Of a DNA stretch of 64,000 nt, positions 27,477 through 39,073 are shown in pieces. Position numbers and translations under genes: made by a program. Within the stretch, counting starts at the first letter, position 1. The number at the start of each line of letters is the position of its first letter. The stretch is from Piscinibacter sp. GTDB lineage: Bacteria; Pseudomonadota; Gammaproteobacteria; Burkholderiales; Burkholderiaceae_C. Location: the NCBI GenBank assembly GCA_017983795.1, contig JAGOAS010000012.1:56907-120906 (forward strand), read 5' to 3'. The notes beneath the pieces are model-generated. The model saw only the letters and a list, made by a program, of their open reading frames with translations. It was not told where the DNA came from and did not search any database.

Positions 27477-29333
27477 TCAGGTGATGTGCGAGATCAGCAC
27501 GCCCGGCGCGGGCTGCACCTGACCCTCGGCCGAGCCGGGCTGCGCGCTGGGCGGCGTGGCCAGCGCGCTGACGCCGGCGCGGCGCACGGCGAGGCCGACC
27601 GAGAGCATGTCCACCACCAGCAGGTGGAGGATGCGCGAGATCATCGAGACGAAGGTGGTCACGTCCTCGCTGTGCTCGACCGGGATGCACACCGTGGCGC
27701 GGCGCGCCAGCGGCGACTGGCCGGCGGTGATCGCGATCACCGCGGCGCCGCGCTCCACCGCCAGGCCGGCGGCGCGCGCCAGTTCGGGCGGCTGGCCGGA
27801 GCTGGAGACGAACACCGCCACGTCGTCCGGGCCGAGCAGTTCGGAGGCCATCGCGAGCATCGAGCCATCCGTGTGCGCCACCGAGGGGATGCGGAAGCGG
27901 AACAGCTTGTGCTGCGCATCCAGCGCCACCACCGCCGAGTTGCCCATGGCGTAGAACTCGACGCGCTTGGCGCGGCGCAGCAGTTCGATGGCGCGGTCCA
28001 CCGCCTCGACGTTGAGCGTCTCGCGGAACTGCATGATCGCCGAGATGGTGTTGTCCAGCACCTTGGCGGCGAGGTCGCCGGTGCTGTCCTGGCGGCGCAC
28101 CTGGCTGCGCTGCACCGGCAGCGTGCCGGTCAGGCCCGAGCCGAGCTTGAGCTTGAAGTCGGCCAGGCCCTGGAAGCCGAGCGAGCGGCAGAAGCGGATC
28201 ACCGTCGGCTGGCTGACCTCGGCGCCCTGCGCGATCAGCGCGATCGGGTCGTTCAGCGCGGTGCGCGGGTTGTCGAGCACGAAGTTGGCGACGCGGCGCT
28301 CGGCCGGCGAGAGCGACTCGCGCGCCGCGCGCACGCGCTCGAGCAGCGGGTTGCCGCCTTCCTGGTCGGGCACGTGGTCGGCCAGCAGCGAGCTGACGCC
28401 GTGGAAGGCCGGGTTCTCGGCCGTCAGCACGTAGGTCGGGATGCGCGCCACGAAGCTGCTGAAGCGGCCCTTGGCCTCGAAACGCTCGCGGAAGGGCGAG
28501 CGGTCGAACAGCGTGCCGAGCCGCGGCACGATGCCGCCGCCGACGTAGATGCCGCCGGTGGCGCCGAGCGTCAGCGCGAGGTCGGAGGCCATCGCGCCGA
28601 GCATGCCGCAGAAACACTCGATGGTCTCGGTGCACACCTTGTCGCCGCCGGCCAGCGCGCGGCGCACGATCTCCGCGGTGGCCAGGTGCGGCTCGGCGCC
28701 GGCCTGGTCCTGCGCCAGCGCGTGGTAGATCAGTTCCAGCCCCGGCCCGGAGAGCAGCCGCTCGGCCGAGACGCGCGGCATGGTCTTCCACGCGAACTGC
28801 AGGATGCGCAGCTCGCGCTCGTCGCTGGGCGCGAAGTTGACGTGGCCGCCTTCGGTGGCCAGCGTCACCCAGCGGTCGCCGCTCGGGATCAGGCCCGAGA
28901 CGCCCAGGCCCGTGCCCGGGCCGATCAGCCCGATCACGCCGTTGCTCTGCGGCTCGCCGCCGCCGACCTGGTGGCGCCCCTCCGCGCCCAGGCGCGGCAG
29001 CGACATCGCCAGCGCGGTGAAGTTGTTCACCACCAGCAACGTGGTGAGGTCGAGCTGGCGCTGCGCCTCCTGGATGGAGAAGGCCCAGTCGCGGTTGGTC
29101 ATGCGCACCCAGTCGCCTTCGATCGGGTTGGCGATGGCCACCGCGCCGTGGCGCGGGTGGATGCCTTGCGGCAGGCTGTCGAGATAGGCCTGCACCACCG
29201 CGGTGAAGCCGGGGTAGTCGGCGCAGGGCAGCACCGCGACATGCTCGAAGCGCCCCGGCACACGCTCGATGCAGAAGCGGGCATAGGTGGCGCCGATGTC
29301 GGCGAGCAGGCGCGGATCGGCGTGCGGTGTCAT
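27477..29333 (-). CDS. Glucokinase-like/RpiR (HexR-type) fusion regulator with degenerate kinase site
   Basis: The 618-residue protein joins an N-terminal glucokinase domain (about 1-325) to an RpiR-type helix-turn-helix (about 335-400, SPAERRVANFVLDNPRTALN and VSQPTVIRFCRSLGF) and a SIS sugar-phosphate-binding domain (about 445-600, VFVSSSGQPPELAR). Burkholderia has the same fusion as a bifunctional glucokinase/regulator. Here the phosphate loop reads ADIGATYARF (11-20) instead of DIGGTNARF. The catalytic Asp is Asn104 (VVNNF instead of INDF), while the sugar-binding E161, H164 and E191 positions are kept. Seen: these substitutions. Inferred: a sugar-binding pseudokinase sensor controlling the maltodextrin operon. 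It overlaps the amylase gene by ATGA. Confidence 0.9.
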   Translation of the reverse strand: MTPHADPRLLADIGATYARFCIERVPGRFEHVAVLPCADYPGFTAVVQAYLDSLPQGIHPRHGAVAIANPIEGDWVRMTNRDWAFSIQEAQRQLDLTTLLVVNNFTALAMSLPRLGAEGRHQVGGGEPQSNGVIGLIGPGTGLGVSGLIPSGDRWVTLATEGGHVNFAPSDERELRILQFAWKTMPRVSAERLLSGPGLELIYHALAQDQAGAEPHLATAEIVRRALAGGDKVCTETIECFCGMLGAMASDLALTLGATGGIYVGGGIVPRLGTLFDRSPFRERFEAKGRFSSFVARIPTYVLTAENPAFHGVSSLLADHVPDQEGGNPLLERVRAARESLSPAERRVANFVLDNPRTALNDPIALIAQGAEVSQPTVIRFCRSLGFQGLADFKLKLGSGLTGTLPVQRSQVRRQDSTGDLAAKVLDNTISAIMQFRETLNVEAVDRAIELLRRAKRVEFYAMGNSAVVALDAQHKLFRFRIPSVAHTDGSMLAMASELLGPDDVAVFVSSSGQPPELARAAGLAVERGAAVIAITAGQSPLARRATVCIPVEHSEDVTTFVSMISRILHLLVVDMLSVGLAVRRAGVSALATPPSAQPGSAEGQVQPAPGVLISHIT

Positions 29334-30940
29334 GTCGGCTTCTTCTTCAGCACCAGCACCTGTTGCGGTGCGAGCTTGACGGCATTGGCGGCGCCGAACG
29401 GCGAGGCCGCGCCTGATGGAAACACCGGCTGCCAGTCGGCCGCCTTGAAGCCGGCGGGCAGGGCGTGCGTGGCGGGCGCCCGCGCGTAGTTGATCAGCAC
29501 CAGCAGCGTCGCCCCCTCGTGCTCGCGCAGGAAGGCGAATACCGGCTGGTCGCGCACCGACAGCGCCGTGAAGCTGCCCAGGGCCAGCGCCGGCTCGGCG
29601 TTGCGCAGCGCGATCAGGCCGCGGTACCAGGTCAGCAGCGAGCGCGGATCGTCCTGCTCGGCGGCGACGTTGTGCGTGCGCCAGTTCGCCACGTTGGCGC
29701 GGAACGGTTTGTCCGCCGTGGTGAAGCCGGCGTTGCGCTCGCCGCTCCAGCTCATCGGCCCGCGCAGCGACTGGTCGGCATTGGCCACCGGCGCCGAGAG
29801 GCCGAGGCCGATCTCCTCGCCGTAGTAGATGAAGGGAATGCCCGGCAGCGTCAGCAGCGTGGCGGCGGCGGCGCGGTAGCCGCCTTCGTCGCCCTCGAAC
29901 TGCCGCGCCAGGCGCGCGCCGGCGAAGTAGTCGTGGTTGGCCAGCAGGGTCGCCATCTGCGCCACCGGCAGCTTGCGCAGGCTGTACAGCACGTCGTCGC
30001 GCAGGCGGCCGAGCTTGGCGCTGGCGACGATGTGCTTCTGCAGCCCGAAGGCGAAGGCCGAGCCGCAGGACTCGGGCGTGGCGAAGGGCGCCGGGTCGCT
30101 GGGCGACTCGCACACCATGTACTTCTCGCCGTAGCTTGCCAGCAGCGTCTGCACGCGCTTGAGCAGCTGATGGTTCTCCGGCTGGTTCTCCCAGGCGGCG
30201 GCGCTGTTCTCGAACAGCACGCCCACCGCGTCGAAGCGGAAGCCGTCGACGCCGCGGTTCAGCCAGAAGCGCAGGTTGTCGAGGTGGAAGTCGACCACCT
30301 TCGGGTTGCGCAGGTTGAAGTCGGGCATGCCGGCATCGAACACCGCGTAGTACCAGCGCTGGTTGCCTTCGCGCCAGGGATCGCCGGCGAAGGTGTTCCA
30401 GCCGCGGGGCTTGTCGTCGGCCCAGATGAACCAGTCGGCGAAGGGCGACTTGCGGCTGTCGTAGGCGCTCTCGAAGATCGGGTGCGCCGCGGCCGCGTGG
30501 TTCATCACATAGTCGAGGATGACCGCGATGCCGCGTTGGTGCGCCTCGGCGATGAAGCGATCGAAATCGGCCAGCGTGCCGTAGGCGGGCTCGATGGCGC
30601 GGTAGTTGACGACCGCGTAGCCGTGGTCGTGGTCTTCGCTCTCGAAGACGGGCATCAGCCACAGGCCCTTGATGCCCAGGGCCTGCAGGTAGTCGAGCCG
30701 GCTTGTCAGGCCGGCCAGATCGCCGATGCCGTCGCCGTCGCTGTCCTGGTAGGCGCGCACCAGGATCTCCATGAATACGCCGCGCTGCGCCCAGCCGGCG
30801 GGCAGGGCGCTGGCCGGCGGCGCGGCCGCCACCGGGCCGACGTCGGCCGGCACCGGCTCGGCAGCCGGTGCGCAGTGCAGCGTGAGGCCGAGCGCCAGCG
30901 CGGCCAGCAGATGCCGCAACGACGACGGCAGCAGGTTCAC
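29330..30940 (-). CDS. Exported GH13 alpha-amylase family enzyme
   Basis: The 536-residue protein starts at a GTG overlapping the upstream stop (GTGA, 30937-30940), with a signal peptide (MNLLPSSLRHLLAALALGLT, cleavage near HCAPAA). GH13 motifs are DYVMNH (143-148), GVDGFRFDAVG (nucleophile D237), MVCESPSDP (acid/base E278) and LLANHDYF (H336, D337), plus DSDGDGIGDLAGL. The sequence around E278 is unusual for the family. It likely hydrolyses maltodextrins in the periplasm or outside, although oligo-1,6-glucosidase or transglycosylase activity is possible. The Cys at 23 is not in a canonical lipobox. The gene lies in the maltodextrin transport operon. Confidence 0.88.
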   Translation of the reverse strand: MNLLPSSLRHLLAALALGLTLHCAPAAEPVPADVGPVAAAPPASALPAGWAQRGVFMEILVRAYQDSDGDGIGDLAGLTSRLDYLQALGIKGLWLMPVFESEDHDHGYAVVNYRAIEPAYGTLADFDRFIAEAHQRGIAVILDYVMNHAAAAHPIFESAYDSRKSPFADWFIWADDKPRGWNTFAGDPWREGNQRWYYAVFDAGMPDFNLRNPKVVDFHLDNLRFWLNRGVDGFRFDAVGVLFENSAAAWENQPENHQLLKRVQTLLASYGEKYMVCESPSDPAPFATPESCGSAFAFGLQKHIVASAKLGRLRDDVLYSLRKLPVAQMATLLANHDYFAGARLARQFEGDEGGYRAAAATLLTLPGIPFIYYGEEIGLGLSAPVANADQSLRGPMSWSGERNAGFTTADKPFRANVANWRTHNVAAEQDDPRSLLTWYRGLIALRNAEPALALGSFTALSVRDQPVFAFLREHEGATLLVLINYARAPATHALPAGFKAADWQPVFPSGAASPFGAANAVKLAPQQVLVLKKKPT

Positions 30941-31415: not shown

Positions 31416-32306
31416 TCAGCCCTTGATGCCACCGGCGGTGAGGCCGGAGATCATCCACTTCTGGGCCAGCATGAATACGATGGTGATGGGCAGGCCGGAG
31501 AGGATGGCCGCCGCGGCGAAGTCGCCCCACAGGTATTTCTGGTCGTACAGGAACATCTTCGAGCCGACCGCCATGGTCAGCAGATCCTGGCGCTTGAGCA
31601 GGATGGAGGCGACCGGATATTCGATGATCGCGCCGATGAAGGCGAGCAGGAATACCACCATCAGGATGGGCACCGCCATCGGCAGCAGCACCAGGCGGAA
31701 GGCCTGCCAGGGCGTGGCGCCGTCGACCTTGGCCGCCTCCTCGATCTCGTAGGGGATGGTGTCGTAGTAGCCCTTGATGGTCCAGATGTGCAGCGCGATG
31801 CCGCCCGAGTAGGCGAGCAGCAGCGCCCAGTGCGTGTCGATGCCGAAGGCCGGGAAGGCGTTGCCGATGCGGTCGAAGATGGCGTAGATCGCCACCAGCG
31901 CCAGCACCGAGGGGAACATCTGCATCAGCATCAGCCCGGTCAGCGCCTGCTTCTTGCCGCGGAACTTCATGCGCGCGAAGGCGTAGGCAGCGGTGGTCGA
32001 GAGGAACAGGCAGATCAGCGCCGACAGCGTGGCCACCTTCACCGAGTTCCACAGCCAGCGCAGCACCGGCAGATCCGGCTCGACGAGGCGGCCGTTGGCA
32101 TCCTGGAAGGGCAGGCCGAGCGCGAAGCGCCAGTGCTCCAGGCTGATGGTGTCGGGGATGATGCTGCCGGTGGCGAAGTTGCCCGGCCGCAGCGAGATCG
32201 AGATCACCACCAGGAAGGGGAAGATCACCAGCGCGCACAGGCAGATCAGGAACACATGCGCGGCGACGACGCGCCAGCGGTGCGAACGGTCGAGGACGAT
32301 GGCCAT
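31416..32306 (-). CDS. malG: Maltose/maltodextrin ABC transporter permease MalG
   Basis: The 296-residue inner membrane permease has six predicted helices and the EAA loop EEAAKVDGATPWQAFRLVLLP that contacts MalK. The periplasmic insert after the first helix (SIIPDTISLEHWRFALGLPF) and the C-terminal GLTAGGIKG match enterobacterial MalG, whose tail reaches into MalK. It lies 14 bp after malF. Confidence 0.93.
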   Translation of the reverse strand: MAIVLDRSHRWRVVAAHVFLICLCALVIFPFLVVISISLRPGNFATGSIIPDTISLEHWRFALGLPFQDANGRLVEPDLPVLRWLWNSVKVATLSALICLFLSTTAAYAFARMKFRGKKQALTGLMLMQMFPSVLALVAIYAIFDRIGNAFPAFGIDTHWALLLAYSGGIALHIWTIKGYYDTIPYEIEEAAKVDGATPWQAFRLVLLPMAVPILMVVFLLAFIGAIIEYPVASILLKRQDLLTMAVGSKMFLYDQKYLWGDFAAAAILSGLPITIVFMLAQKWMISGLTAGGIKG

Positions 32307-32320
32307 GCGTCGTGTCTCCT

Positions 32321-33874
32321 TCAGCGCTTCTCGTCTTCGACGACCTTGGTGAAGCGCATCTGCACCAGCGACACCGCCGCCACCATCAGGAAGATGACGG
32401 TCGAGATCGCCGCGGCCAGGCCGTAGTTCTGGCCCGAATCCTGGAAGGCGATGCGGTAGGTGTAGCTCACCAGCAGGTCGGTGGTGCCGGCCGGCACCGA
32501 GGTATCGATGAAGTCGGGCCGCCCGCCGGTGAGCAGCGCGATCAGCACGAAGTTGTTGAAGTTGAAGGCGAAGGAACTGATCAGCAGCGGCGTCAGCGGC
32601 TTGAGGACGAGCGGCAGCGTGATGCTCCAGAAGTTGGTCAGCGGCCCCGCGCCGGCCACCGCCGAGGCCTCGTAGAGATCGGCCGGGATCGCCTTGATGA
32701 GGCCCATGCAGATGACCATCATGTAGGGGAAGCCCAGCCAGGTGTTGACGATCAGCAGCATCACCTTGGCCAGCAGCGGATCGGAGAACCATTGCGGCTT
32801 GATGCCGAACAGCGACGAGAGGATGAGGTTGATCTCGCCGACGTTCTGGTTGAACAGACCCTTGAACACCAGGATGGAGATGAAACCCGGCACCGCATAG
32901 GGCAGGAACAGCAGCATGCGGTAGCTGCCCTTGAAGCGCAGCGCGTCCCAGTTGAGCAGCACCGCCAGCAGCATGCCCAGCGAGGAGGCGAACAGCACGG
33001 TCAGCGCCGAGAACAGCACCGTCCAGACGAAGATGCGCACGAACGGCTCGCGGAAGCGCGCCTCGGTGAAGATGCGGCGGTAGTTGTCCCAGCCGATGCC
33101 GACCTGGAAACCCGGCTGCAGCTTCTCGCCGGCCTCGGTTTCGAAGAAGCCGCTCACGGGGTTGGCGCGGATGACGCTGCCGTTCTCCTGGTTCTTCAGG
33201 CTGCCGTCGGGCCGCTTCACCCACAGCGGCTGCACGGCCGCGAACTCGCGCAGGCCCGCCATGCCGACCTTGCGGCCATCGGGCAGCGCCACGGTGATGC
33301 CCTTGAGCGCCTTCTGGTGGCCGATCAGTTCCTTGAGCGTCACCGGCTCGGGCAGCGCCGCGGCGCCGGCGGGCTCCGGCTCGGCCGCGACCTCGAGGCG
33401 GCGGTCGGCGGCGAGCGCCAGCGGCCCGAACTGGAAGGCGGCGCCCGACTCCGCATCGACCAGCCGGCCGCGGTATTCGGCGCCCGCCGGGTGCAGGCTG
33501 AACTCGTAGCTCGAGCCCTCGGCGCGGAAGGTGTCGCTGAGGAAATAGGCCTCGGCGCGCGGAAACTCGAGCAGGTTGCGCGAACTGTAGTTCGTGAACC
33601 CGATGGTGATGGTGTAGAGCATCGGGAACACGACGAAGACCAGCGCCGCGGCGATGCCCGGGAAGAGATAGCGGAAGGCGTAGGTCGCCTTCGCGCTGTA
33701 GATCCACACGGCCAGCGCCGCGATCACGAGCAGCGTGAGCGCGAGCAGCACCTCGCCGGTGGCGTAGACGACGACGACGAGATAGAGCGCCGCCACGATC
33801 ACCAGCGCGAGCAGCGTGGGCGCTAGCCAGCGGCGTTCGGCTTTCGCGGGTGGTGTCAGCGTGGCGTCGCTCAT
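32321..33874 (-). CDS. malF: Maltose/maltodextrin ABC transporter permease MalF
   Basis: The 517-residue permease has three N-terminal helices, a large periplasmic P2-like domain (about residues 95-275, including the FETEAGEKLQPGFQVGIGW region) and the C-terminal permease core with its EAA loop (EASAVAGAGPLTNFWSITLP). The long P2 domain is the mark of MalF proper, as opposed to short generic sugar permeases, and contacts the binding protein. It precedes malG in the usual order. Confidence 0.93.
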   Translation of the reverse strand: MSDATLTPPAKAERRWLAPTLLALVIVAALYLVVVVYATGEVLLALTLLVIAALAVWIYSAKATYAFRYLFPGIAAALVFVVFPMLYTITIGFTNYSSRNLLEFPRAEAYFLSDTFRAEGSSYEFSLHPAGAEYRGRLVDAESGAAFQFGPLALAADRRLEVAAEPEPAGAAALPEPVTLKELIGHQKALKGITVALPDGRKVGMAGLREFAAVQPLWVKRPDGSLKNQENGSVIRANPVSGFFETEAGEKLQPGFQVGIGWDNYRRIFTEARFREPFVRIFVWTVLFSALTVLFASSLGMLLAVLLNWDALRFKGSYRMLLFLPYAVPGFISILVFKGLFNQNVGEINLILSSLFGIKPQWFSDPLLAKVMLLIVNTWLGFPYMMVICMGLIKAIPADLYEASAVAGAGPLTNFWSITLPLVLKPLTPLLISSFAFNFNNFVLIALLTGGRPDFIDTSVPAGTTDLLVSYTYRIAFQDSGQNYGLAAAISTVIFLMVAAVSLVQMRFTKVVEDEKR

Positions 33875-33895: not shown

Positions 33896-35098
33896 TCACT
33901 TGGCCAGGATGCGCTTGGCCGCGCCGTCCAGCGCTTCCTTGGCGCTCTGGCGGCCGTCCATGATGTTGCCCAGCGCCGAGACCATCGCCGACCAGAAGCG
34001 CCCCATCTCCGGGTTGTTCGGCATCGGCGAGCCGTCCTGCGCCGAGGCCATGGTGGCCTGGATCTTGGGGTCGCTCTTCAACTCGGCGAACAGCGTCTTG
34101 CTCGCCGGCGTGCCCAGCGGCACGTCGTCGTTGATCATCTTCAGGCCCTTGGTGCTGAGCATGTAGTTCTCGATGAACTCCACCGCCACGTCCTTGTTGG
34201 GCGTCGACTTGTTGAGCATCGCGCCGAGCACGCCGACGAAGGGCGCCGCCTTCTTGCCGCCCACCGTCGGGATCTTGGCGACCGCGAAGTCGATGTTGGC
34301 CTTCTTCAGGTTGTCCCACGACCAGGGGCCGTTGATCATCATCGCCACCTTGCCCTGCGCCATCGCCGCTTCCATCTCGGCGTAGCCGCTGCCCTCGGGC
34401 ATGTACTTCTCGCGGATCAGCTTGTTCAGCAGCTCCGCGCCCTTCACCGCGCCGGCGTTGTTGACGCCCGTGTCGGCCGGGTCATAGGTGCCGTCGGGCT
34501 TGAGCTTGAAGGCGTAGCCGCCGTTGGCGGCCAGCAGCGGCCAGGTGAAGTAGGTGTTGGTGTAGTCCCACAGGATGGCCTTCTTGCCGTCCTTGGCGAG
34601 CTGCTTGTCGAGCGCCATCACCTCCTCGAAGGACTTGGGCGGCGTCTTCACCAGGGCCTTGTTGTAGACCAGCGAGACGGCCTCGATCGAGATCGGGTAG
34701 CCCCAGGTCTTGCCGCCCACGTTGAAGGCCTTCCAGGCCAGCGGGTCGATGTCGTCGCGCAGCTTCTTGCTCGGGGTCAGCGGCTGCAGCAGGCCGCCGG
34801 CGATCCATTCGCCGATGCGGTCGTGCGGCCAGATCCAGATGTCCGGGCCCTTGCCGGCGGCGGCGGCCTGCTGGAACTTGCCCGGCGCGTCTTCCGGGTG
34901 CTCGACCGTCACCTGCACGCCGGTCTTCTTGGCGAACTCGTCGCCGATCTTCTGCAGGCCGTTGTAGCCCTTGTCGCCGTTGATCCAGATGAGCAGCTTG
35001 CCGGGCTCGCCGGCCAGGGCGGCAGCGGGCAGGCCGCCGGCCAGCGCCAGCGTGGCGGCGGCGGCGAGCAGGCGGATGCGTTGACGCGGAATGTTCAT
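33896..35098 (-). CDS. malE: Maltose/maltodextrin-binding periplasmic protein MalE
   Basis: The 400-residue protein has a signal peptide ([20 protein letters not shown]) and a mature domain with the MalE pattern: [54 protein letters not shown] and [11 protein letters not shown], including several conserved stacking aromatics. It delivers maltodextrins to MalFGK2. It lies 36 bp after malK and 21 bp before malF. Confidence 0.94.
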
Positions 35099-35134: not shown

Positions 35135-36238
<1,104 letters not shown>

Positions 36239-36372: not shown

Positions 36373-37614
<1,242 letters not shown>

Positions 37615-37798
37615 TCAGAGGTTGTGCTTGGGGGACTGAAACCGGCCTTCGCCGGCGGGGGGACATGCGCGAGCCGGAAGCGACGCGAAAACACGCGCCG
37701 CCCCTCGCGGGGCGGCGCCAACTCGCTCTTCCGGGAAAAACAGGAGCGCGGAGCCGGCGCGGGCCGACGTGTCGATCAAGGCGCAAAGCTCCACGGTG

Positions 37799-37813
37799 CG
37801 TAGTGCAACTACA
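37799..37813. promoter_or_regulatory. HexR-like operator palindrome 1
   Basis: CGTAGTGCAACTACA is a near-perfect inverted repeat (GTAGT-GCA-ACTAC). It agrees with the gammaproteobacterial HexR consensus core TGTAGTTAAACTACA at 12 of 15 positions by my count. It lies downstream of the candidate lamB promoter, in the leader of the mal operon. A partial copy (CGTAGTTTTGAGACG, 37822-37836) lies 23 bp away. Confidence 0.6.
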
Positions 37814-37844
37814 CGTTGTTGCGTAGTTTTGAGACGGGCGGACT

Positions 37845-37873
37845 TTAGTAGTGGTACTACAAAGGGTGAACAA
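37845..37873 (-). promoter_or_regulatory. Candidate sigma70 promoter for the lamB-mal operon
   Basis: On the minus strand a -35 TTGTTC (37873-37868) and a -10 TACTAA (37850-37845) are separated by exactly 17 bp. The -10 is weak (3 of 6), as expected for a regulated promoter. Operator palindrome 2 covers the spacer, a position suited to repression. Confidence 0.45.
37847..37861. promoter_or_regulatory. HexR-like operator palindrome 2
   Basis: AGTAGTGGTACTACA repeats the GTAGT...ACTAC architecture with a shifted centre and lies between the -35 and -10 boxes of the candidate lamB promoter. It is centred 48 bp from operator 1, with the partial copy midway between them. Confidence 0.55.
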
Positions 37874-37956
37874 GGGTTTGCACCAGTGTTGCTCAAGCAC
37901 CATGGGGGATTGAGGCCGCTCAACGAGAGGCAGGAAATATCAGCGCTGAACTCTGA

Positions 37957-37985
37957 TTGCCAGCGCAACGTAGTTTGGCTACATT
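37957..37985 (+). promoter_or_regulatory. Candidate sigma70 promoter for glk
   Basis: TTGCCA (37957-37962), a 17-bp spacer and TACATT (37980-37985) form a good promoter pointing to glk, giving a leader of roughly 90 nucleotides. Operator palindrome 3 overlaps the spacer and the start of the -10 box. The rest of the 478-bp gap between lamB and glk (37603-38080) shows no gene. Confidence 0.6.
37969..37983. promoter_or_regulatory. HexR-like operator palindrome 3
   Basis: CGTAGTTTGGCTACA matches the HexR-type core at 11 of 15 positions by my count and overlaps the glk promoter spacer and -10. The same regulator could therefore control both the mal operon and glk. Confidence 0.5.
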
Positions 37986-38080
37986 GCCCCGCCACGGGAT
38001 GCTTGCCTACGCGCCGGGGCGTTCGGCGCGAAGTTTGCTGACCGCCCGGTTGCACCCTTCGCGCCTTCACCACGAACACC

Positions 38081-39073
38081 ATGGCCCTGCCTGATCCGTC
38101 CGACCCGATCGCCGCCAGCTACCCGCGCCTGCTGGGCGACATCGGCGGCACCAACGCGCGCTTCGCGTGGCTGGCTGCGCCGTGCGAGGCGCCATCGCAG
38201 CTGGACCGCTACGCCTGCGCCGACCATGGCTCGCTGCAGGACGCGATGCGCCACTACCTCGATGCGCACCAGCTGCCCGCGCCGCGCTGGTGCGCGATCG
38301 GCATCGCCAACCCGGTGGTCGGCGATCTGGTGCGCATGACCAACCACGACTGGCAGTTCTCCATCGAGGCGTTGCGTGTGCAGTTCGGCATGGCGCGCTT
38401 CCTCGTGATCAACGACTTCACCGCGCTGGCGCTGGCGCTGCCGGCGCTGCGCCCGGAGGACGTGCGTCAGGTCGGGCAGGGCACCGCGGTGGCGCGTTCG
38501 CCGCTGGGTCTGATCGGGCCGGGCACGGGGCTGGGCGTATCGGGCCTGCTGCCGGCCGACGGCGGCCGCAGCGCCATCCCGATCAACGGCGAGGGCGGGC
38601 ACGTCACGCTGGCCGGCACCACGCCGCTGGAAGATGCGGTGATCGCGCGGCTGCGCGAGCGCTTCGGCCACGCCTCGGCGGAGCGTGCCGTCTCGGGCCC
38701 GGGCCTCGTGAACCTGCACACCGCGCTGTGCGAGCTCGACGGTGCCGCGGCGGAGGCGCTCGACGCCGCCGCCATCAGCGCCCGCGCGCAGGCGGGCGAT
38801 GCGCGCGCCGTGCAGGCCGTCGAACTCTTCTTCGCCTTCCTCGGCACGGTGGCCGGCAATCTCGCGCTCTCGCTGGGGGCGCGTGGCGGCATGTACATTG
38901 GCGGCGGCATCGTGCCCCGGCTCGGCGACCGCATCGACGCTTCCGCGTTCCGCGAGCGCTTCGAAGCCAAGGGGCGCTTCCGCGACTACCTGCGCGGCAT
39001 CCCGACTTTCGTCGTGCAGGCGAGCACCTCGCCGGCGCTGCTCGGGGCGGCGCGGGCCCTCGAAGACCTTTAG
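38081..39073 (+). CDS. glk: Glucokinase (stand-alone, catalytically intact)
   Basis: The 330-residue ROK-unrelated (E. coli Glk-type) glucokinase has the phosphate loop LLGDIGGTNARF (GDIGGTNAR at 19-27), the catalytic pair N111-D112 in VINDFTALAL, the GPGTGLGVSGL motif and the sugar-binding EGGHV (E171, H174) and SAERAVSGPG. It phosphorylates glucose released by MalQ and amylases. It diverges from lamB behind a promoter carrying a HexR-like site. All catalytic residues lost in the fusion protein are present here. The C-terminal ~30 residues fit the family. Confidence 0.93.
   Translation: MALPDPSDPIAASYPRLLGDIGGTNARFAWLAAPCEAPSQLDRYACADHGSLQDAMRHYLDAHQLPAPRWCAIGIANPVVGDLVRMTNHDWQFSIEALRVQFGMARFLVINDFTALALALPALRPEDVRQVGQGTAVARSPLGLIGPGTGLGVSGLLPADGGRSAIPINGEGGHVTLAGTTPLEDAVIARLRERFGHASAERAVSGPGLVNLHTALCELDGAAAEALDAAAISARAQAGDARAVQAVELFFAFLGTVAGNLALSLGARGGMYIGGGIVPRLGDRIDASAFRERFEAKGRFRDYLRGIPTFVVQASTSPALLGAARALEDL

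Follow-up and report, generated by a model that had tools for sequence, protein, structure and literature searches.

Does a glucokinase domain that ends a maltodextrin gene cluster still phosphorylate glucose, or has it become the sensory half of a transcription regulator? The question is raised by the closing gene of such a cluster in the window, by which we mean the whole 64,000-nucleotide stretch of Piscinibacter sp. DNA that was analysed. Its product joins a glucokinase domain, here termed Glk*, to an RpiR-type regulator. We consider it probable that the fusion is a transcription regulator with a pseudokinase glucokinase half, and that it controls the maltodextrin operon and the stand-alone glucokinase gene, glk2, in a feedback loop. 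The features of the locus are listed in Table 1. The ATG of the fusion gene overlaps the stop codon of the amylase gene upstream by 4 bases (ATGA), and the PUD-domain protein of the same cluster is perhaps a small starch-binding protein. A hairpin upstream of lamB is perhaps an attenuator or a chance occurrence, shuffled sequences holding 0.6 such sites on average.

Table 1. Features of the fusion locus, in window positions
Feature	Position	Strand	Remark
Glk*-RpiR fusion regulator gene, 618 aa	27477..29333	-	final gene of the maltodextrin cluster
Glucokinase domain, aa 9-319	28377..29309	-	Pfam
Phosphate loop GATY, aa 14-17	29283..29294	-	within Glucokinase domain
Asn104 at catalytic-Asp position	29022..29024	-	within Glucokinase domain
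RpiR part: HTH_6 (aa 330-398) and SIS (aa 452-577)	27603..28346	-	Pfam
GH13 alpha-amylase family enzyme	29330..30937	-	
Small protein, 143 aa	30937..31368	-	signal-like N-terminus, lone pullulanase-associated PUD domain
MalG-type permease	31416..32297	-	
MalF	32321..33874	-	
MalE	33896..35098	-	NF007011, 549 bits vs cut-off 291
MalK-type ABC ATPase	35135..36238	-	
LamB maltoporin	36373..37602	-	
Hairpin, 10 pairs all G+C, then T-rich tail	37695..37718	-	upstream of lamB
Candidate operator 1, GTAGTGCAACTAC	37800..37812		exact
Candidate operator 2, GTAGTGGTACTAC	37848..37860		exact
Sigma-70-like consensus	37957..37985	+	glk2 strand
Candidate operator 3, GTAGTTTGGCTAC	37970..37982		1 mismatch
Stand-alone glucokinase gene glk2	38081..39073	+	motifs intact, divergent from lamB

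At E <= 0.001, the only Pfam matches in the fusion are Glucokinase, HTH_6 and SIS, with the HTH C-terminal to the kinase. The PF02685 match covers positions 1-313 of 314 (349 bits), a complete glucokinase fold, and HTH_6 (64.4 bits) and SIS (61 bits) both exceed their gathering scores, which gives the domain content of an RpiR regulator. Ligand roles are presumed from E. coli Glk, in whose numbering we take the matching loop Gly, loop Asn and catalytic Asp to be G12, N14 and D100; the sugar-contact role of N103, E161, H164 and E191 is assumed from the same enzyme. The phosphate loop of the fusion reads D12-IGATYAR-19, and the catalytic motif, residues 101-107, reads VVNNFTA. In a phmmer alignment to E. 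coli Glk (PDB 1q18/1sz2), A15 and Y17 lie opposite the G and N of GGTN, and N104 lies opposite the Asp of INDF. The fusion therefore has GATY in place of a GG[TS]N phosphate loop and Asn104 in place of the Asp of the ND motif, and it holds all four sugar-contact residues, N103, E161, H164 and E191. The sequence-only reading had named the loop change, the Asp-to-Asn change and the retention of E161, H164 and E191, all of which are borne out, as is its statement that the Glk at 38081 keeps every motif (DIGGTNARF, INDF, EGGH and AER). An AlphaFold model of the fusion was mediocre (mean pLDDT 67.6, pTM 0.53) and was left out of the evidence.

Curated profiles place the protein between existing classes. 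It passes the glucokinase models TIGR00749 (306 bits, cut-off 225) and NF001416 of NCBIfam (399 bits, cut-off 383), so automatic annotation would probably name it a glucokinase, a name that for a candidate pseudokinase is likely an annotation error. Against NF010701, the bifunctional regulator/glucokinase, it scores 813.5 bits, below the curated 920-bit cut-off, and against NF008451, the HexR subfamily, 233.8 bits, below the cut-off of 296. Two fusions from the family sampled here as f32 score 1298 and 1343 bits against NF010701; because both scanned members pass this model, f32 is taken to be Burkholderiaceae in the strict sense. The combination of a ROK domain (presumably PF00480) and an N-terminal HTH that marks ROK repressors is absent from the fusion. 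Judged by cut-offs and motifs, the protein would belong with the RpiR-family regulators and carry a putative pseudokinase sensor, outside NF010701 by its score, outside the catalytic glucokinases by its motifs, and outside the ROK repressors.

The changed residues are shared widely among relatives. GATY and Asn104 are both present in all seven other congeneric genomes, in one of which (G001) the fusion gene is broken in the assembly. Among 79 named loci, drawn from the best 80 of 191 candidates and in several cases probably from strains already counted as genus genomes, Asn stands at 104 in 18; these span Piscinibacter, Albitalea, Rhizobacter, Caldimonas, Aquabacterium, Scleromatobacter and further bins, and one of them, L042, has lost its loop at a contig end. 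The same best-of-191 set holds 59 loci with GATH and a kept Asp (Massilia, Duganella, Undibacterium and kin) and two, L053 and L064, in which Gly replaces the Asp. In family samples of 150 and 399 genomes, drawn from larger groups and searched at E <= 1e-120, 32 of the 150 genomes gave a match. Twenty-eight further loci (L112-L139) comprise five with GATY/NN and 23 that keep the Asp, with one loop cut off; loops of the Asp-keeping loci include GGTY, GGTF, GSTF, GRTF and even AIDGSEAR and EIDGEFAR. GGTN occurs in 8 of 136 distinct fusion ORFs (four loops unreadable), and GG[TS]N in 46 of the 47 readable loops among 52 stand-alone Glk ORFs. The positions equivalent to A15, Y17 and N104 are 96-100% conserved among intact reference Glks. 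Because relatives carry the same letters (all seven congeneric genomes, and Asn104 in 18 of the 79 loci), the changes are neither recent nor private to one strain, and they are shared by related genera rather than being sequencing errors.

Three observations accompany this survey. P. aquaticus KACC 15278, a member of the Sphaerotilaceae whose fusion is 95% identical to that of the window in the best segment, has both its fusion and its stand-alone Glk in pieces across frames (L047); the close relatives being intact, these breaks are most likely assembly indels. The fusions at L181/L137 (G150) and L182/L138 (G090), with the scrambled loops AIDGSEAR and EIDGEFAR, keep the Asp and the sugar contacts and are candidate sensors that have lost ATP binding. 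Two GATH fusions lie ~6.5-15 kb apart in nine Massilia-type loci (L055, L058, L069, L070, L071, L075, L081, L090 and L188).

Trees of the glucokinase domain were computed without the motif columns; the first set aside rows with domains of <280 aa and near-identical rows (>88%), and the second set aside domains of <290 aa, rows >83% identical and four named rows (two L047, two long L206). Three lineages of fusions are recovered: A, Sphaerotilaceae with GATY/NN (SH-aLRT 99); B, Oxalobacteraceae with GATH or GATQ (SH-aLRT 100); and C, with GGT[YF] and variants (SH-aLRT 99), which we label Comamonadaceae-like as a guess. The intact f32 fusions fall apart from all three. Within the lineage-A clade of the motif-free tree, 12 of 13 rows have Asn; the remaining row is L047, which is broken but likewise has NN in its pieces. 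A quick tree gave seven changes of loop state by parsimony. Several independent loop losses are nonetheless weakened as an explanation by an AU test, in which a single A+B+C clade was not rejected (p-AU 0.678) and the likelihood was in fact higher for the constrained tree; the loop Asn may thus have been lost once. The catalytic Asp was lost on two occasions, in A and in a pair inside B. Intact stand-alone Oxalobacteraceae Glks (L240, L242, L245, L250, L283-L288, L053:16404-17475 and L072:20799-21735, of which L053 and L072 are named loci and the f8 rows are presumed Oxalobacteraceae) nest among fusion Glk domains in the trees, the second of which is midpoint-rooted. This nesting suggests that there a catalytic copy shed its RpiR half while a regulatory copy changed its loop.

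The replacements in Glk* are few and concentrated. Sixty-eight columns are >=93% conserved when stand-alone and intact-fusion Glks are taken together. In lineage A, 57 of these remain at >=90%, and three are wholly replaced: the loop residues G15 and N17 and the catalytic D104. Full replacement affects G15 and N17 in lineage B, and N17 and A309 in lineage C. Fusions were assigned to lineages for these counts from the motifs themselves (NN for A, GATH/GATQ for B), and those letters are therefore no independent evidence here; three partial fusions plus L183 and L184 were set aside. N103, E161, H164 and E191 are unchanged in all 21 lineage-A, 73 lineage-B and 29 lineage-C rows. The Thr of the second phosphate motif is Ser in 20 of 29 lineage-C rows and Ala in 3 of 21 lineage-A rows, the window protein not being among the latter. 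Selection was estimated in five genome pairs holding both genes (L050, L033, L034, L036 and L035): dN/dS is 0.18-0.38 for Glk*, 0.07-0.22 for the RpiR half and 0.22-0.38 for the intact stand-alone Glk. In deeper pairs, where dS is less reliable, the ratio rises to 0.66 in Glk* and to 0.57 in stand-alone Glks. By these ratios, Glk* is constrained about as much as a working kinase and is under purifying selection.

The lower ratios of the RpiR half in the five pairs would also be expected if Glk* were a mere dimerisation or protein-contact scaffold within a regulatory pseudokinase whose signal comes from the SIS domain alone. The response of RccR and HexR to KDPG, as given in the part of PMC5489143 available to us, is in line with such a scheme. 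A scaffold, however, need not keep every sugar contact, and all four are kept in every scored row of lineages A, B and C; we consider this alternative unlikely, though it deserves attention.

The regulatory pseudokinase reading that we prefer also depends on catalysis being lost. In the ROK kinase NagK, the portion of PMC10031466 available reports that changing the general-base Asp to Asn (D105N) cuts activity at least 1000-fold and that the Thr-to-Val exchanges T10V/T132V at the two phosphate-coordinating sites bring a loss of activity. The result should carry over to PF02685 Glks by common fold and mechanism. Loss of kinase activity in the lineage-A fusion is well supported, as the loop and the Asp are both replaced and the replacements are fixed across a lineage under purifying selection, with the Asp-to-Asn exchange equivalent to that in NagK; the pseudokinase suggested by the sequence-only reading is thus well supported from sequence. 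Inactivity of lineages B and C is less sure because the Asp is mostly kept and because some stand-alone Glks, too, have His in place of the loop Asn (L246 and L301 with GGTH, L247 with GGSH), which makes GATH weak evidence of inactivity. Within the fusion family, only the Asp-less part would surely be dead, the Massilia-type and Comamonadaceae-like fusions mostly keeping the Asp. A slow or altered kinase, acting on another sugar or with another phosphoryl donor and truly bifunctional like the Burkholderia-type fusion, would account for the intact fold and sugar contacts, the kept Asp in most of lineages B and C, and the passing NF001416 score (399 against 383 bits). It is hard to reconcile with the general-base Asn that all of lineage A shares, together with both loop changes, with the Thr-to-Ala change in 3 of 21 rows (not the window protein), with the adjoining intact kinase, or with the abolished activity of the NagK Asp-to-Asn variant in the available part of PMC10031466, and we judge it improbable.

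Whole-genome PF02685 searches, of 50 genomes and then 17 more, included every listed fusion genome except G379, whose locus L160 shows a second Glk. A further full-length PF02685 protein is present in 50 of 50 genomes with a changed-loop fusion (A 13, B 7, C 30) versus 2 of 25 with an intact fusion. The 25 are 23 f32 genomes plus G162 and G341; the weak partial second match of G341 (23 bits) was scored as none, and with it included the figure would be 3 of 25. G429 and G371, each with one intact and one changed fusion, were placed among the changed-loop genomes, and G065, G081 and G212 (GASN/GATN, Asp kept) and G573 (GGTH), all with a second Glk, were left out of the comparison. The further copy carries GG[TS]N and the Asp in 13 of 13 genomes of A, 7 of 7 of B and 29 of 30 of C; the exception, G155, has GGSH with the Asp kept, and in G371 the further copy is the second, intact fusion. 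Fisher's test gives p = 4e-17 for 49 versus 25 genomes (G034 not yet counted), uncorrected for kinship among genomes that are related. PF02685 proteins occur in 37 of 60 f32 genomes and fusions in 24. All 24 keep the Asp, which fits the earlier statement that Burkholderia fusions retain it, and 23 keep GGTN; among these 23, the fusion is the sole PF02685 protein in 21, and a second Glk is confined to G405 and G556. The twenty-fourth fusion, in G573, has GGTH, and that genome does have a second Glk. Each of the nine genomes with an unfused operon has one Glk. The earlier proposal that a second kinase may have freed the domain from catalysis is supported by this distribution among related genomes, 50 of 50 against 2 of 25.

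The gene neighbourhoods differ by lineage. In lineage A, the fusion closes a lamB-malKEFG-GH13 cluster, and glk and lamB diverge from each other in the window and at L033, L034 and L035; L048 and L049 have a TonB receptor instead, and the remaining loci are too short to tell. In G085 and G145, outside the genus, the intact glk adjoins neither lamB nor the fusion. Lineage-B fusions lie amid GH13, pullulanase, MFS or PTR2 transporter genes, some with a TonB receptor and a halogenase, and most lineage-C fusions diverge from an intact glk next to a TonB receptor. Three f32 neighbourhoods read zwf-pgl-fusion next to divergent ABC genes. Unfused relatives have zwf-pgl-glk-rpiR-pgi beside edd, and in three of four such loci glk and rpiR share one frame with a single stop between them. 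A tryptophan-halogenase-family gene recurs near the TonB-receptor genes at L048, L049, L051, L072, L073, L170-L174 and L177-L179.

The sequence-only reading had left the targets of the fusion open. The lamB-glk2 gap holds three candidate operators, the third of them inside a sigma-70-like consensus on the glk2 strand that is the only such site in 37500-38200. GTAGT-N3-ACTAC has two exact copies in the 4.24-Mb genome, both in this gap, and a search of the genome with GTARTNNNAYTAC added none. With one mismatch allowed, 18 sites were found genome-wide versus 467 for a reversed control pattern, so there is no genome-wide enrichment; the operator signal is a local cluster, not a genome-wide excess. 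Near fusions, the exact motif occurs 4 times in lineage A (11 loci), 11 times in B (16), 7 times in C (21) and 3 times with intact fusions (4), against an expectation of 0.05 or less in those gene sets; the four unfused loci hold 2. When <=1 mismatch is allowed, 10 of 14 lineage-A sites (11 loci) are upstream of Glk|LamB, the 32 lineage-B sites are chiefly upstream of GH13, pullulanase or MFS/PTR2 genes, and among 43 lineage-C sites 18 are upstream of Glk|fusion and 12 of a TonB receptor; for intact fusions 5 of 10 are upstream of zwf|SBP, and for unfused loci 5 of 7 upstream of zwf|edd. The three-site array, with spacings of ~48 and ~120 bp, recurs in two further lineage-A genomes (L304 and L305). 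No site outside genes was found in 5 of 11 lineage-A loci (L037, L038, L040, L043 and L044), which start at or after lamB and do not include its promoter; such sites were likewise absent from 3 of the 21 lineage-C loci and from one of the four unfused ones.

According to the available part of PMC5489143, Pseudomonas RccR binds the same 15-bp palindrome, TGTAGT-N3-ACTACA, and KDPG weakens the binding. The window has predicted sites of this type near the putative target genes, as an RccR/HexR-type regulator would. Relatives beside zwf carry the same operator, which indicates a rewired regulon, and DNA specificity seems to have been inherited while the targets changed. The candidate operators thereby suggest that the maltodextrin genes and glk2 are the fusion's targets. 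The lamB-glk2 operators might instead belong to a separate HexR-like protein, with the fusion controlling something else: HexR-type proteins share the family and have sites of similar shape, a solo HexR-like regulator gene lies behind zwf in the Piscinibacter genome, and unfused relatives carry the same motif at zwf|edd. Yet none of the 18 genome-wide sites (<=1 mismatch) is near the zwf-hexR locus (contig C3, ~109-112 kb), and the sites track the fusion lineages into several gene contexts, which leaves this ownership very doubtful. A functionless relic on its way to loss, to which the absent catalytic residues might point, merits almost no credence: in the five pairs the dN/dS of Glk* does not exceed that of the working kinase, which rules out degeneration; the 3 of 68 conserved columns fully replaced all lie at the phosphoryl-transfer site; and the domain is complete in the surveyed lineage-A loci, the exceptions being L042, truncated by its contig, and L010, L016 and L047, which belong to the broken assembly of P. 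aquaticus.

Our analysis allows the regulatory pseudokinase reading to be set out as a mechanism. The apo-protein would bind the three TGTAGT-N3-ACTACA-like sites and, once bound, would repress the maltodextrin operon, its own gene included, and glk2. Free glucose from maltodextrins would occupy the Glk* cleft and not be consumed. Release of the repressor would then follow from glucose in Glk*, from a phosphosugar (KDPG, for example) on SIS, or from both, and Glk2 would clear the glucose, closing the feedback loop. In evolution, glk and rpiR of a zwf-pgl-glk-rpiR operon would have fused, a copy of the fusion would have moved to starch and maltodextrin loci with its operator specificity kept, and catalysis would have been lost where a second kinase was present. 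Of the earlier interpretation, kinase loss and the second-kinase distribution are supported. What the sequences show directly is the loss of motifs, the kept pocket, selection, the placing of the operator sequences and the gene context; DNA binding, repression, the ligands (glucose among them) and two-input control are what we infer.

The nearest known system is the Burkholderia-type bifunctional glucokinase/HexR fusion (NF010701; Paraburkholderia xenovorans Glk, PMC12568896), which has the same domain order and, in the loci compared here, the same operator type. Three f32 fusions of this type are 55-57% identical to the window fusion. The f32 fusions keep GGTN (23 of 24) and the Asp and, in the three neighbourhoods compared, adjoin zwf and ABC genes, whereas the window fusion stands in a maltodextrin cluster. 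Stages in the passage from enzyme to signalling protein, namely intact and bifunctional, loop changed with the Asp kept, and Asp lost, fall along one operator lineage with rewired targets.

RccR and HexR of Pseudomonas, which we take to be RpiR-family proteins, have to our knowledge no kinase domain. Like the fusion, they are HTH and SIS regulators of sugar catabolism; unlike it, RccR targets aceEF and other central carbon genes and HexR targets glucose/ED genes through the site TTGT-N7-8-ACAA, in the accessible portion of PMC5489143. Kinase-fold regulators are already known as a kind, and the new element would be a non-ROK glucokinase, presumably of the Group A considered below, serving as a regulatory pseudokinase; no description of this fusion pseudokinase was found in the open-access literature, outside which most subscription journals lie. 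Yeast Gal3 is a kinase-fold sugar sensor separate from catalysis, and we know of no DNA-binding domain fused to Gal3 or Hxk2. In yeast Hxk2, sugar sensing by a kinase fold is likewise separate from catalysis, yet the protein is an active enzyme, and a eukaryotic one (PMC8256278, available in part).

The ROK repressors Mlc and NagC resemble the fusion in that a sugar-kinase fold has been turned into a transcription regulator. The part of a 2025 study available to us (PMC12696579) places both in Group B, with Group A glucokinases diverging apart from them. In Mlc and NagC, the DNA-binding domain is N-terminal, whereas the window fusion is a PF02685 Glk with a C-terminal RpiR part, and it would therefore represent a separate route from kinase to regulator. 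We offer only tentatively, at somewhat less than even confidence, the fuller proposal that in beta-proteobacteria a sugar kinase became a transcription factor along a second path, independent of ROK. A Group A glucokinase joined to a HexR-like regulator would have been copied into starch and maltodextrin loci, where catalysis was given up and the glucose pocket retained. The fusion would now sense free glucose with its dead kinase half and a phosphosugar with its SIS domain, and would so compare how much glucose is supplied with how much the adjacent kinase, itself under the fusion's control, phosphorylates. In its group of environmental bacteria, the fusion is probably a sugar sensor for starch-sugar uptake genes and for the true glucokinase that adjoins them.
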